This document shows, one piece after another, positions 4,643 to 30,041 of a stretch of DNA of 35,875 bases. Made by a program: the position numbers and the translations under genes. This DNA comes from Patescibacteria group bacterium (GTDB lineage: Bacteria; Patescibacteriota; Microgenomatia; JAMCYU01). The stretch lies in NCBI GenBank assembly GCA_023473585.1, contig JAMCYU010000010.1, forward strand, positions 1 to 35,875, in the 5' to 3' direction. The notes beneath the pieces are model-generated. The model made no database searches. It was not told the DNA's origin and saw only the letters and a program-made list of their open reading frames with translations. The stretch's first letter is position 1. Every line of letters begins with the position of its first letter.

Positions 4643-6965
4643 CGACCTCCTGCCAGGTCAACCGGTTGAAACCGAAGTTGACGGGGAAATTAACTAAGAA
4701 ATCCGGCCGATATTCAAAATATTCTGAAGGGTAGGAATTATTATAATTCGTCCCTCCGCTATCTAAGTTCCGGTTAAAATTAAGACTGCCTGTTCCGTCC
4801 AAATTAGCATCGGCGATAAACATCCCTCCACCCAAAAATTGATTAGTCGAGACCGAGGTGTCAATTGACCCGTCGGCAATATAAATTCCTTGCATTTGGG
4901 AAGCAGCGGAACTGGCTGGATTTAAAGGCGTACTTGATCCTATACCTGTGTCAAAAGTAATGTTTCCACTTGAAATCAATGCAAAAAAACCGCCAGGCGT
5001 AACCTTAATTAGCGGATTAAAGGTTATATCGCCATCAACTAAGATAATAATTTTTTGATCGCTAGCAACCGTTCTTGTGTTCCCTCTATAACTCGTTCCG
5101 GCTCCCCCAGGTGAAAATTTATAGCAGTTACCTCCAGGATCTTTACCAAGGTCTTTAAAATGACCAGGATTGAAAAAGTTCTCTTTATCTTCAGTTACAC
5201 AATTTTGGAGTTTTGCCGAAAAGCGAACGTAATCGTATTTAGTCTGATTTCCGCCAAAACCCGTAAAGTTTTCCGTCGCCGCATCTTTAACTTTCCAGTT
5301 ATTGGGATTACTGAAAAGATTCTTCGTTTCTACGTTCCCCGTAAAATTTCCGCCGGTCGAAACAACCCCGGCCGTATTGGCCGTGCCCAAGGAAAGATAG
5401 GGACAACAACCGCCGGCGGTGCAAGTGGCTGAAGTACAGGTGTCAATAGGCATCGTTGCTCCCACACCTCCGTTGCCGTGGACGTCTCCGTAACCTGTCT
5501 GAAACCAAGCATTTTTCAAGGGAAAAACGGTAAAATTTTGCGTTATCGACGGCGCCGCTGCTAACGATACAGATTGGCTACAGGAAGACCCCCCACAAGA
5601 GAGACAAGACTCATCGGTCGCGTTATGGCTTACCGAAACGGTGTAAGAACTTCCTCTTGGCGGCTTACTGGAACAGCTGTCGCTATCATAATATCCACTG
5701 CCATTTGTCGTTAACGAACAGGCGTAGGTCGAACCACCGGTGCCGGCTATCGTTACCGTTCTTCCGCTCTGGAGACTACCGGTATTACAAGTCAAACCAG
5801 TCGTATTCTTGTAAACATTCCCGCTAATTTTTCCCGGTGGAACTAGAACAACCATCAAATAGTTATTTGCCTTCAACTCCTGGGAAAAAGTACAACCTGT
5901 TCCTGATTTATTAATCCCCTCAATCGTAAAGGTATAATTACAGGTATATCCTAGTGGAACACCAGTGACTTGAAAGGTTCGGCTACCTACAGTCAAATTG
6001 TTAAAAGAAAAATTAAGACCATTGGTATCGACTGTTCCCTTACAAAACCACCATGAATCCTGTCCTTCCGCATTCACCGAACACCAACCTTGCATTATGA
6101 CCTGCGTCGGACACCACCAAGAAGGATTATTAGTTCCGCCTTCGGCAATATTAACTCCGGGGATTACAGGATTACATTGGCTTTCACAACCGTTTATTTG
6201 ATTCCAGCAACATGCCTTATCTTCTCCAACAGGGCCTGGCGGATTGCAAGTAGCACAACTTGCTCCGTAAGGTGAACCACAATGTCCACCATCACTTGAA
6301 GTACTCTGTCCTACTCTTCCCCCGGTGCTTAAGGCAATATAGCCGTCTAGTTTTGCCGGCGCAGCAATACGGCAGTTAGCGGAGCTTCCCGGAGCCAGGC
6401 AGCATATAAAATCTTTGCCTTTCCTTTCCACGCAGTTGGCATCCCAAGGTCCTAGAGAAGCAGGTCGTGGTGGTATTGGCTCGCCACATGTTGGATCTGC
6501 ATACGGATTACAGCAATCTGTGCATTGTTGTCCGTGTTGTCCGCAAGAAACTTTACATTCATTTACACCCGGTTGACCATATACGGCACAGCATTGTAGT
6601 CCCGCAGGACAACCAGCAGGATAATTCGGCGGGCACATATTTGTAGTAGTCGTCGGAGTCGGTACAAGAGAACAGTTAAACTTTTCTTCTACGCACTGAC
6701 CGTTTCCAGGTCCACAGGAATCTATATCACAAGAGGTTTTATAAGAATAAGGCAGGGTTTGACCAGCTCCACCTTTATCCCAACATTGACCGAGCGTTCC
6801 TTGACAATCTTTGTCGGACGTGCAACCTGCCCATGGATCACAAGGAGTTCTACGTGTTTCTTGCCCAGCGCAAGAACAATCTGCAGCATATATAACCGTT
6901 AAATTTATTAACGAAGCAACGAAGAAATATGTCAAAAAAACCAAGCTCCGCAGGAAAAACCTCAT
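4635..6965 (-). CDS. Large secreted Cys-rich surface protein
   Basis: The 776-aa product has a signal peptide (about residues 1-28, ending VIYAADCSC), then roughly 300 residues with dozens of cysteines in short modules (for example CPAGLQCCAVYG, CVERKGKDFICC), a Pro/Thr linker, and a middle part that looks like a carboxypeptidase-regulatory or Ig-like beta domain (KISGNVYKNTTGLTC; tandem segments around residues 380-470). The C-terminal 250 residues have IIILVDGDITFNPLIKV and GIYIADGSIDT, a beta-helical pattern, and end YRPDFLVNFPVNFGFNRLTW. That C-terminus recurs nearly unchanged in the partial gene at 35736-35875, so it defines a paralogous family. The function is unknown; a disulfide-rich envelope, pilus-tip or adhesin role is inferred. 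The promoter at 6972-7000 predicts a leaderless mRNA. Confidence 0.75.
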   Translation of the reverse strand: MRFFLRSLVFLTYFFVASLINLTVIYAADCSCAGQETRRTPCDPWAGCTSDKDCQGTLGQCWDKGGAGQTLPYSYKTSCDIDSCGPGNGQCVEEKFNCSLVPTPTTTTNMCPPNYPAGCPAGLQCCAVYGQPGVNECKVSCGQHGQQCTDCCNPYADPTCGEPIPPRPASLGPWDANCVERKGKDFICCLAPGSSANCRIAAPAKLDGYIALSTGGRVGQSTSSDGGHCGSPYGASCATCNPPGPVGEDKACCWNQINGCESQCNPVIPGVNIAEGGTNNPSWWCPTQVIMQGWCSVNAEGQDSWWFCKGTVDTNGLNFSFNNLTVGSRTFQVTGVPLGYTCNYTFTIEGINKSGTGCTFSQELKANNYLMVVLVPPGKISGNVYKNTTGLTCNTGSLQSGRTVTIAGTGGSTYACSLTTNGSGYYDSDSCSSKPPRGSSYTVSVSHNATDESCLSCGGSSCSQSVSLAAAPSITQNFTVFPLKNAWFQTGYGDVHGNGGVGATMPIDTCTSATCTAGGCCPYLSLGTANTAGVVSTGGNFTGNVETKNLFSNPNNWKVKDAATENFTGFGGNQTKYDYVRFSAKLQNCVTEDKENFFNPGHFKDLGKDPGGNCYKFSPGGAGTSYRGNTRTVASDQKIIILVDGDITFNPLIKVTPGGFFALISSGNITFDTGIGSSTPLNPASSAASQMQGIYIADGSIDTSVSTNQFLGGGMFIADANLDGTGSLNFNRNLDSGGTNYNNSYPSEYFEYRPDFLVNFPVNFGFNRLTWQEVAP

Positions 6966-22873: not shown

Positions 22874-22945
22874 GGCGCGATGGCGAAGTGGAAACGCTGG
22901 GGTCTGCAAAACCTCGATGCGAGGGTTCGATTCCCTCTCGCGCCT
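22874..22945 (+). tRNA. tRNA-Cys (anticodon GCA)
   Basis: Acceptor GGCGCGA pairs with TCGCGCC, discriminator T (as expected for Cys), anticodon arm GGGGT-CTGCAAA-ACCTC and T-arm GAGGG-TTCGATT-CCCTC. The 3' CCA is not encoded. Confidence 0.92.
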
Positions 22946-22953
22946 CAAAACTC

Positions 22954-23158
22954 GGGTCGGTAGTTCATCGGTAGAACGCTTCTCTGACCTGCCCGCCGAA
23001 CTAATCGAAATGTTTGGGCAAGTAGTTCAATGGTAGAACGTCGTCCTGATAAGACGAAGGTTCATGGTCCGATTCCATGCTTGCCCACAGCAAAATTTCG
23101 GGTCGGCTTAGGCAGGTGGGTAAAGAAGAGGCGGATGGTTCGATTCCATCCCGACCCA
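22954..23158 (+). tRNA. tRNA-Val (GAC), interrupted in the anticodon loop
   Basis: The 5' half (22954-22988) gives acceptor GGGTCGG, D-arm GTTC...GAAC, anticodon stem CTTCT and loop start CTGAC. The 3' half (about 23122-23158) gives AA, stem AGAAG, variable AGGCG, T-arm GATGG-TTCGATT-CCATC, acceptor CCGACCC and A73. Joined, they make a regular tRNA-Val. The roughly 133-nt insert contains a complete tRNA-Ile and has ends that pair: ACCTGCC (22987-22993) with GGCAGGT (23111-23117) and GCCGA with TCGGC. It is either an intron-containing gene or a tRNA broken by a palindromic insertion. Confidence 0.6.
23016..23087 (+). tRNA. tRNA-Ile (anticodon GAT), nested inside tRNA-Val
   Basis: Acceptor GGGCAAG pairs with CTTGCCC, anticodon arm TCGTC-CTGATAA-GACGA, T-arm CATGG-TCCGATT-CCATG, discriminator A, no encoded CCA. 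It lies wholly between the two halves of tRNA-Val. Confidence 0.9.
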
Positions 23159-23812: not shown

Positions 23813-24508
23813 CATGTCGTTCCATCACTTTCGTGTGGCATGGACTATATCTTCATCCGCAGTAATTTAAGTTTTTCTGGGTGTCCGGAACTAATCTTTC
23901 CAGCAAAATCTTTATATGATTTTGCCTTTATGTAGAATCTCCAGTATTCCGGGTCATCCTTCTGACTTGGATTATGCATTCTCCCGCAACTAATTTTTAA
24001 TTCTTCAAGAAAACGTTTTACTCTTAAAAGATCATTTCTATTCTTTTGAGCAAAATAGACGTAAAAACGAACTTGAGAACTTTTGGCAATACCTCCTTCA
24101 GCATCGAAATAACCTCTAATAAAATCAATCTTTTCTTGTTTGGATTTTATTGGTGTCTTTTTAAGGAAAATTTTAGAAAATTCCACAATCCAAAGATTGC
24201 GATTTTTTCCCTCCTTGTAAACCCAACAAGATTTTCCGAGCCTTTTGATTCCCTTTTGGAGAAAATTACAAAAAGCTTGACTTTTTGAGGCTATACGATA
24301 GGTAGTCTGTCTTTCCGTTGCGTCGTGCAAAACTCCAAGTAAATACGCTTTTGTTACCTTCGGAGCTAGCGTGTAGTCTCTACGGGGTAAACTCATAATT
24401 TGAGTATACTTCCCTCGGTATTACCATGTCCAGCAAAGCTGGATTTAGGTTTCACCGATACAGCCAGATTTTTTACCAATGTTACCACTGGGAGTCGCAA
24501 CTTGATTT
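23813..24508 (-). other. Group I intron in 16S after U1498
   Basis: The 5' exon ends AAGTCGT (U1498) and the 3' exon resumes AACAAGG; the intron ends in G, satisfying the group I U...G rule. GACTA in the 5' part (about 24378-24374) and TAGTC (23847-23843) in AAGATATAGTCC match the R and S core elements that form P7. The homing endonuclease gene spans from R to S: its start region includes the P7 5' strand and its TAG stop is part of the P7 3' strand. Confidence 0.85.
23845..24396 (-). CDS. LAGLIDADG homing endonuclease, intron-encoded (intron 2, position 1498)
   Basis: The 183-aa protein has two LAGLIDADG-type helices: a degenerate one at AYLLGVLHDATE and a good one at DFIRGYFDAEGGI, so it works as a monomer. 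The following pattern (VRFYVYFAQKNRNDLLRVKRFLEELKI, then CGRMHNPSQ) is typical of group I intron endonucleases. It would cut intronless 16S genes at the 1498 site and promote spread. The acidic catalytic residue in the first motif is an Asp within LHDAT, the second is DAEGG. Start ATG at 24396. Confidence 0.9.
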   Translation of the reverse strand: MSLPRRDYTLAPKVTKAYLLGVLHDATERQTTYRIASKSQAFCNFLQKGIKRLGKSCWVYKEGKNRNLWIVEFSKIFLKKTPIKSKQEKIDFIRGYFDAEGGIAKSSQVRFYVYFAQKNRNDLLRVKRFLEELKISCGRMHNPSQKDDPEYWRFYIKAKSYKDFAGKISSGHPEKLKLLRMKI

Positions 24509-24596: not shown

Positions 24597-25475
24597 ATTT
24601 CGATAGCTTAAAGTTGCTTCGATTCCCCACCCGGCGAGCGGATTTCCCGCACCGGGCGAGCCCTAAAATTCATTTCTGATTTTAATCGTCTGATTTGCAA
24701 AATACCTTCCCTTGTAAGATATTTTTTCTTATTGATTAAGTTAAAAATCTCACAAAAATTCTTAAAGGATTTTTGCTTTAACTGACCTTGCAAGGGATAC
24801 TTCTTAAAGAAAGGAATAAGAGTTTCTTGAATATCTTTTTGTGAATTTATTTCAAATCTGAAACACGGTGTATGATTCTTCCGTTTTTCTTTTTGAAAAT
24901 AAACTCCTCCACGACCAAAAAACTTTTTTATCTTATCTAAAAGATGTTTCTCTTCTTGTCGAAGCTTAATGTAAAAATGAGTTTCTATTTTAGGAATCCA
25001 TTTTCCGGGTTTCCTGCCTCTCAAATTTACATAAAAACATCCCTCTCCGTCAGTTAATCCAACAATGTAATCAGCTGTAATCATTAGGTTACTTCCTTCA
25101 CCGCTGCGTGTATAATTGGATTATATCACGGAGACGATTACTATGAAGTAGCTGACTTCTTTTAAGGTCATTGCTTCTTTCCTTAAAAGATCTCTCTGGG
25201 TCATTTAGAAAACTATTCCAGACATACCTATAGAAGCTTGGTTAATGATCTTCCCCATAACACACCGCATGAGTCGATCGCTTCTTTAAGTTATAGGTCT
25301 ATCTTTTGCCTCAGGCCCTCCAGACCAGCTTCTCACGAAACCGGACCTGCCATTTATTTTTTTGGCTATAAAAGTGGATTTTAACCACTTAGTCACCGCA
25401 AAATGCGGGATCCCGCTAATGGCGGGATTTCCTAAACTGCCAGACGCGCATTCTGTCCTATACTTATAGGACATT
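24597..25475 (-). other. Insertion in 16S between positions 1398 and 1399
   Basis: The exon boundaries that restore the universal sequence are GTACACA (A1398) and CCGCCCGTC (C1399). The 879-nt insert starts AATGTCCTATAAG, which is an 8-bp hairpin, and ends CGAAAT. It does not start after U nor end in G, so it does not fit the group I boundary rule, yet GGTCT (25326-25322) and AAAAGATAGACC (25307-25296) enclose a GCC-TGA-GGC hairpin like a P7-P8 core. An AAAT occurs at both junctions. It carries a homing endonuclease gene. It could be a diverged group I intron or an excised intervening sequence. Confidence 0.7.
24608..25084 (-). CDS. LAGLIDADG homing endonuclease, single motif (insert at 1398)
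   Basis: The 158-aa protein has one LAGLIDADG helix, YIVGLTDGEGCFYVNL (near residues 6-21), so it would act as a homodimer like I-CreI. The pattern then continues as in the LAGLIDADG_1 family (KIETHFYIKLRQEEKHLLDKI, FRFEINSQKDIQETLIPFF), and GREGILQIRRLKSEMN-type segments near the end support it. An AGGAAG box precedes the ATG. It lies in the 3' part of the insert, downstream of the possible core elements. Confidence 0.9.
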   Translation of the reverse strand: MITADYIVGLTDGEGCFYVNLRGRKPGKWIPKIETHFYIKLRQEEKHLLDKIKKFFGRGGVYFQKEKRKNHTPCFRFEINSQKDIQETLIPFFKKYPLQGQLKQKSFKNFCEIFNLINKKKYLTREGILQIRRLKSEMNFRARPVREIRSPGGESKQL

Positions 25476-25783
25476 TGTGTACAAGATCTGAGAACGTATT
25501 CACCGCGACTTGCTGATCCGCGATTACTAGCGATTCCGAGTTCATGCAGGCGAGTTTCAGCCTGCAATCCCCACTGAGGCGAAATTTTAGGGATTAGCTT
25601 CCCCTCGCGGAGTTGCAACCCGTTGTTCTTCGCCATTGTAGTGTGTGTGTTGCCCAGGGCATAAGCGCCGTGCTGACTTGACGTCGTCCCCACCTTCCTC
25701 CCAACCGAATGGCAGGGCTGTCTCTAATGAAAATTTAACATTAAATAGGGGTTGCGCTCGTTATGGCACTTAAGCCAACACCC

Positions 25784-25814
<31 letters not shown>

Positions 25815-26793
25815 GCTTTGTATCACCCTCGAAGGTCCCACGTTTCCGTGGGCTTGCAGATACATGTCAAACCCTGGTGAGGTTCTTCGCTTTGTCTCGA
25901 ATTAAACCACACGCTCCACCGCTTGTGCAGATCCCCGTCAATTCCTTTGAGTTTTAAGCTTGCGCTCGTACTCCCCAGGCGCTCTGCTTAACGTGTTAAC
26001 TTACGACTCCGATCTTGCGACCAGAATCTAGCAGAGATAGTTTAGGGCTTGGACTACGCAGGTCTCTAATCTGCTTCGCTCCCCAAGCTTTCGTGCCTCA
26101 GCGTCAAGGATTAGTTAGGTTTCTGCCTTCGCCATTGGTGTTCCTTCTGATATCAACGCATTTCACTGCTCCACCAGAAGTTCCGAAACCCCCACTAATC
26201 TTCAAGAATTATAGTCTCGCACCCAGTTCCAAGGTTGAGCCTTGGGATTTTAGACGCGACTTATAATCCCGCCTACGCGACTCTTTACGCCCAATAAATC
26301 CGGATAACGCTTGCACTCTACGTATTACCGCGACTGCTGGCACGTAGTTTGTAAGTGCTTATTCTATAGGTACCGTCGGACGTACCAGATGGTACATCCC
26401 TTCCCTATCAAAAGTGGTTTACAATCCTAAGATCTTCATCCCACACGCGGTGTCGCTGCGTCAGAGTTTCCTCCATTGCGCAATATTCCCGGTTGCTGCC
26501 ACCCGTAGGTGTAGGGCCCGTGTCTCAGTGCCCTTGTGGCTGACCGACCTCTCAGTCCAGCTACCCGTCATCGCCTTGGTAGGCCATTACCCCACCAACT
26601 AGCTGATAGGACGCAGGCTCATCCTTCGACGCGAAGTTACTCGCTTTCTTCCTCGATTACTCTCGGAACTTATACAGGATTACCCCGTCTTTCGACGAGC
26701 TATCCTTAATCAAAGGGTAGATTCCTACGTGTTACTCACCCGTCCGCCGCTGACCTCTTGCGAGGCCCGCTCGACTTGCATGCCTAAGGCACA

Positions 26794-26829
<36 letters not shown>

Positions 26830-26837
26830 AAAATTAA

Positions 26838-29994: not shown

Positions 29995-30010
29995 TTTCTC
30001 ACCTCCCTTC

Positions 30011-30041
30011 GCCCGCCGAAGCGAGATAAGCGAAGGCGGGC
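30011..30041. repeat. GC-rich palindrome upstream of the 60-aa gene
   Basis: GCCCGCC (30011-30017) pairs with GGCGGGC (30035-30041), separated by GAAGCGAGATAAGCGAA. The same GCCCGCCGAA core appears in the ends of the tRNA-Val insert at 22990-23000, so it may be a small dispersed element. Confidence 0.6.

Follow-up and report, generated by a model that had tools for sequence, protein, structure and literature searches.

Integrative elements target tRNA genes, often in the anticodon arm, and carry sequence that keeps the tRNA working. In phages, the SegB protein is described, in the excerpts of the two relevant papers, as a GIY-YIG enzyme that is associated with tRNAs and reported to cut within tRNA genes (PMC13096335, PMC2988022). 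Mobile tRNA introns of the Thermoproteales have also been mentioned (PMC10714607), and the rRNA genes of the Candidate Phyla Radiation (CPR) contain insertion sequences with LAGLIDADG endonucleases, many of them group I or group II introns (PMC11270868). We found no literature on bacterial tRNA genes nested in tRNA genes, a weak absence because the search was confined to open-licence papers.

The locus studied here is such a nest. The window, i.e., the whole stretch of DNA that was analysed (35,875 bases), is the entire contig C10, one of the 12 that make up a draft genome of 809,578 bases (genomes, contigs and loci are designated G, C and L). At 22954-23157 of the forward strand, two tRNA halves surround a complete tRNA-Ile(GAT) (Table 1), which confirms the nested structure given in a preliminary description of this DNA. 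The insert has 133 bases, lies between the anticodon bases A35 and T36, and consists of inverted-repeat arms and a whole tRNA-Ile(GAT). It starts with CCTGCCCGCC and finishes with GGCAGGTGGG, i.e., its ends are of the CC...GG form. The outer halves pair in 7/7 positions of the acceptor stem and 5/5 of the T stem. Folding of the nest is predicted to give a cloverleaf whose anticodon arm is extended (-86.5 kcal/mol, z -5.4, 0/200 shuffles). The ends of the insert had been said to be able to pair, and its arms indeed out-pair shuffled ones (1/300 shuffles); in most nests of this kind, the terminal inverted repeats also pair better than shuffles. At this spot, ARAGORN and Rfam call the inner gene and nothing else, and this gene is the sole tRNA-Ile(GAT) found in the genome. 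The segment GGGTCGG at 23100 was considered as a second outer 5' end and dropped because it is part of the 3' arm, which recurs in locus L114.

Table 1. Features of the nested tRNA locus and its surroundings in the window.
Feature	Position	Strand	Evidence or remark
tRNA-Cys(GCA), upstream neighbour, outside the nest	22874-22946	+	ARAGORN, Rfam
Outer tRNA-Ile(GAT), 5' half, through anticodon base A35	22954-22987	+	ARAGORN call on the join with 23121-23157
Insert, 5' arm, CCTGCCCGCCGAACTAATCGAAATGTTT	22988-23015	+	Pairs with the 3' arm; resembles arms of L114, L110, L120
Inner tRNA-Ile(GAT), complete	23016-23088	+	ARAGORN; Rfam 71.3 bits
Insert, 3' arm, terminating in GGCAGGTGGG	23089-23120	+	Pairs with the 5' arm; similar arm in L114
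Outer tRNA-Ile(GAT), 3' half, starting at anticodon base T36	23121-23157	+	Join with the 5' half; stem pairing
Two LAGLIDADG genes	24608-25084, 23845-24396	-	LAGLIDADG_1 E 5e-20, LAGLIDADG_3 E 8e-14
16S rRNA gene	25440-26835	-	

Two other observations concern the rest of the window. The sequence GCCCGCCGAA, noted earlier as recurring at 30011, does recur there, but the signal is weak (5 sites with at most one mismatch, against 2.5 expected); this copy lies within a short palindromic repeat (GCCCGCC..GGCGGGC, window 30009-30041), and another is found at 6625-6634 on the reverse strand. The two LAGLIDADG genes adjoin the 16S rRNA gene on its downstream side, and no 23S rRNA was found within the window.

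The outer gene had been taken for a tRNA-Val(GAC). Joined after CTGA and before TAA, i.e., at A35^T36, its halves are read by ARAGORN as tRNA-Ile(GAT), and an uninterrupted relative in G019 is contiguous, 94-95% identical over both halves, and carries the anticodon GAT. The misreading arose because the first C of the insert was counted into the anticodon. The preliminary description had also named an intact tRNA-Val(GAC) elsewhere in the genome as part of what would speak against its own reading, and one is present at C4:116367. Its alternative, in which a palindromic element with tRNA-Ile broke another tRNA gene, is supported and reaches much further than was proposed, except for its target: the interrupted gene specifies the very tRNA that the element carries.

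Nests of this type are widespread. A degenerate pattern of the nest retrieved 23 stretches from 84,980 species genomes, and 20 of them are a tRNA-Ile(GAT) gene with a tRNA 5' half before it; those with a group given belong to the Patescibacteria, both Microgenomates and Parcubacteria. The pattern had no match in the viral collection, and a phage origin was discarded. The window's own genome has further nests, Val(TAC)-in-Val and Ala(CGC)-in-Ala, with the end motif in common, and an Arg(CCT) nest located in the D loop. We then made a covariance model from 12 nests, the one in the window included, which spans 22954-23157 at 180 bits; known nests mostly score above 85 bits and single tRNAs up to about 70 bits. 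With a threshold of at least 93 bits, 90 of the 367 genomes sampled from the class of the window's genome, roughly a quarter, have a match, an unvalidated count because the matches of lower score were not read. All 67 high-scoring matches that were fetched and read contain a complete inner tRNA, nearly all with outer halves (by eye), and they span eight amino acids: Ile(GAT, TAT), Val(GAC, TAC, CAC), Ala(CGC), Thr(TGT, CGT), Gly(GCC, TCC, CCC), Pro(TGG), Met(CAT), and Arg(TCT). An inner Ala(GGC) occurs as well. Some nests have three levels (G118, L104, L120), and others retain a single outer half (L006, L080, L098, L110). That the window comes from a draft assembly in 12 contigs could suggest an assembly artefact, but the same architecture is found in many independent assemblies, including one pattern nest in the chromosome record CP066689.1, and we give this explanation practically no weight.

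The inner and outer genes match in identity. Since free cut points gave ambiguous anticodons, they were replaced by a joining test bounded by the CC..GG ends, under which the outer halves of 35 loci form a cloverleaf whose acceptor stem is perfect. The anticodon inside equals the one outside in 28 of these 35 loci, against 3.5 expected from permutation of the inner labels (2000 rounds, at most 11); some mismatches, e.g., Ile(AAT) around Ile(GAT), look like decay. Judged by eye, the insert in the anticodon loop separates positions 35 and 36 of the Ile, Met, Thr, Arg, and Gly(TCC) genes, and the Val and Ala genes are split between 37 and 38; a few insertions are in the D loop (L232, L237, L241). 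Matched identity could arise from duplication in place, i.e., from a replication or repair error that copied a tRNA gene into its own anticodon loop with no mobility involved. The near identity of the inner and outer genes in L103 (99%) and L118 (94%) would also fit this explanation, as would L121 (Nomurabacteria), where a tRNA-Ile 5' half plus spacer occurs twice in a row, nearly unchanged, before the full gene in what resembles a tandem duplication. Yet the identity between inner and outer genes is usually just about 70-80%, and the ends of the inserts recur across tRNA identities and classes. We regard duplication in place as unlikely.

The two copies differ in their state of preservation. 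In the 22 nests that were curated, every inner gene is perfect, and about half of the outer copies are defective: they show disrupted stems, altered anticodons or insertions. The many outer copies that remain intact would also be compatible with a function. This bears on the possibility of a spliced nested precursor, in which end processing would cut out the inner tRNA and the outer halves, held by the arms, would be joined into a second functional tRNA. The fold with an extended anticodon arm would permit it and the outer stems covary across nests, although such covariation is also expected if insertions hit different native tRNA genes. Broken pairs are confined to the outer helices, and many loci retain one half. 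The tRNA-splicing endonuclease (PF01974) was found in 0 of 11 genomes (this one and 10 related ones), with all four archaeal controls positive, the RtcB ligase was present in only 1 of the 11 (the window's genome is among the 10 without it), and Rfam gives no intron family match at the spot. A working splicing route is, in our view, very improbable, and the earlier suggestion of a tRNA inside the spliced intron of a tRNA-Val fails in addition on the identity of the outer gene.

Among the inserts, units for different tRNAs have in common the recurring end motif ACCYGCCYGCC..GGCRGGYRGGT (with variants), and the arms of the window's nest have close counterparts in Parcubacteria (L114, L110, L120). 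At the level of sequence, we consider the anatomy of the nests, the matched identity of their genes and the sharing of ends by distant genomes to be established. The end motif also occurs in a free 22-bp palindrome that is dispersed in several genomes; this palindrome, ACCTGCCTGCCGGCAGGCAGGT or a close form of it, is found in L135, L136, L146, L150, L128, and others, lying in an apparent tRNA T loop in L136 and near the tip of another palindrome in L150. Several unrelated end families exist. At least three more, not of the CC..GG form, are found in the anticodon loop of tRNA-Ile genes (L200/L227/L240, which are Ile(TAT) units; L210/L224; L107/L115/L197). This diversity counts against the invasion reading proposed below, as a single mechanism must explain all of them.

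The direction of the insertion can be read at one site. In genus g112, the tRNA-Val(CAC) of G135 is uninterrupted and shares its upstream context with a nest of G126. Once joined, the outer halves of G126 agree with this uninterrupted gene in all but one base, the insert between them has 112 bases, and the comparison reveals no target duplication. This exact empty site in a congener implies that the native gene of the G126 nest is the outer one, into which the inner gene came as a newcomer; the comparison covers one Val nest and not the window's own Ile nest. At the same site, the native gene of G245 is broken and is accompanied by a GIY-YIG gene (Pfam E 3e-15) and a complete tRNA-Val(CAC). 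For another nest, in G289, no counterpart was found among the 11 remaining species of genus g58, which fits rapid turnover; the genus-wide search with this nest gave no empty site, the locus being rearranged there. The exact empty site, the recurrence of nests and the decay of outer copies are, like the anatomy, directly apparent in the genomes compared.

Taken together, the data are probably best explained by the invasion of elements with a replacement tRNA as cargo. A small DNA element with palindromic ends and a complete tRNA-Ile(GAT) would have entered the anticodon loop of the resident tRNA-Ile(GAT), splitting the resident gene and bringing the same tRNA. Because the same tRNA was supplied, the cell would have survived; the inner gene would now do the work, and the outer halves would be a relic. 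The process would be repeated for many tRNAs of Patescibacteria and, at one site, could produce nests within nests. The mover would be an enzyme that cuts tRNA genes, most plausibly one of the small GIY-YIG endonucleases encoded beside them. From these patterns we infer both the movement of the units as elements and the part of such an enzyme in it.

The distribution of GIY-YIG genes bears on the nature of the mover. Across the 14 genomes examined, the number of GIY-YIG matches per genome ranges from 2 to 13, long UvrC-like ones counted. Small GIY-YIG loci are often close to tRNAs: 16 of 29 lie at most 300 bp from one, against about 1.3 expected from tRNA density (a rough estimate), and in G000 four of the five small genes are within about 115 bp of a tRNA. 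Beyond several of the tRNA-adjacent genes, on the side away from the tRNA, lie relic fragments of that tRNA. Short nests, in contrast, show no enrichment: a GIY-YIG gene is nearby in 4 of 37 loci, compared with 12 of 28 ordinary tRNA loci of G000, and there is none beside the window's nest. Because so few short nests are near such genes and the one in the window has none, we only hypothesise that small GIY-YIG endonucleases linked to tRNAs may move the nest units.

Particular arrangements of these genes recur. In G000 (C4:54500-57200; L062, about 1800-2350), a full tRNA-Glu(TTC) comes immediately after a small GIY-YIG gene, with tRNA-Glu relics on both sides, and G126 (L284) has a similar arrangement and similar upstream palindromes. 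The order tRNA-Arg(TCG), GIY-YIG gene, tRNA-Lys(CTT) is found in G000 (C4:105234-105737), G118 (L266), and G186 (L267), which represent three families of the class.

The elements could also have another mover, i.e., a recombinase or transposase acting on DNA hairpins, with the GIY-YIG genes at tRNA genes being a separate matter. The palindromic ends, the dispersed free palindrome with the same motif and the scarcity of GIY-YIG genes near short nests are consistent with this possibility, whereas GIY-YIG genes occur at comparable sites together with a tRNA and with relic halves, which argues against it. We give this version of the element invasion a substantial chance, if somewhat short of an even one. 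For the invasion itself, we lean towards a more specific formulation: Patescibacteria would harbour minimal elements that home and rescue, made of about 100-150 bases with a complete tRNA gene between inverted repeats, which enter a loop of a gene for the same tRNA and take over its job. Since such a unit takes over the job of its target, it would not be easily lost, and successive rounds would build nests and turn over the tRNA set.

If this is true, the tRNA genes in much of bacterial diversity are giving way to copies that invade them, the old ones being left as nested halves, which would explain the split tRNA halves in genomes of Patescibacteria. It would be a natural case of an element that brings the rescue for its own damage to an essential gene, and a caution for annotation tools, which see only the inner gene. 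The mechanism is directly testable, as one site in one genus has empty (G135), filled (G126), and endonuclease-bearing (G245) forms.

The nests appear to be new relative to the kinds of systems compared here, in the sense that they do not fit into any of them, which is distinct from a proof of mechanism. They resemble the CPR rRNA insertions in affecting RNA genes of the same bacteria, where homing endonucleases occur, but those insertions target rRNA, and tRNA is unmentioned in the text of that study (PMC11270868). They share with phage SegB the link between GIY-YIG endonucleases and tRNA genes; SegB belongs to phage tRNA arrays, for which the excerpts available do not describe nested replacement, and the window's nest lacks a GIY-YIG gene. 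The mobile tRNA introns of Thermoproteales and the split tRNAs of Archaea have a similar insert in the anticodon loop and a similar pairing of palindromic ends. The archaeal introns, however, are spliced by an endonuclease that is absent here, contain no tRNA in the insert and leave the outer gene working; neither a group I nor a group II intron core was found in our insert, where Rfam gives tRNA only. MITE/REP-like repeats are also short, with inverted-repeat ends, no protein of their own and dispersed relatives of the end motif. The nests differ from them by the lack of target duplication at the empty site (G135/G126), by the tRNA cargo and by an insertion tied to loops of tRNAs of the same identity. 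Integrative elements of tRNA genes are similar in that they insert into a tRNA gene and preserve the tRNA function, but they encode an integrase, leave direct repeats and restore the gene by an overlapping end. The window's insert encodes no integrase, its 133 bases being taken up by the arms and the tRNA, and the nests, with neither repeat nor protein, carry a whole second tRNA gene instead.
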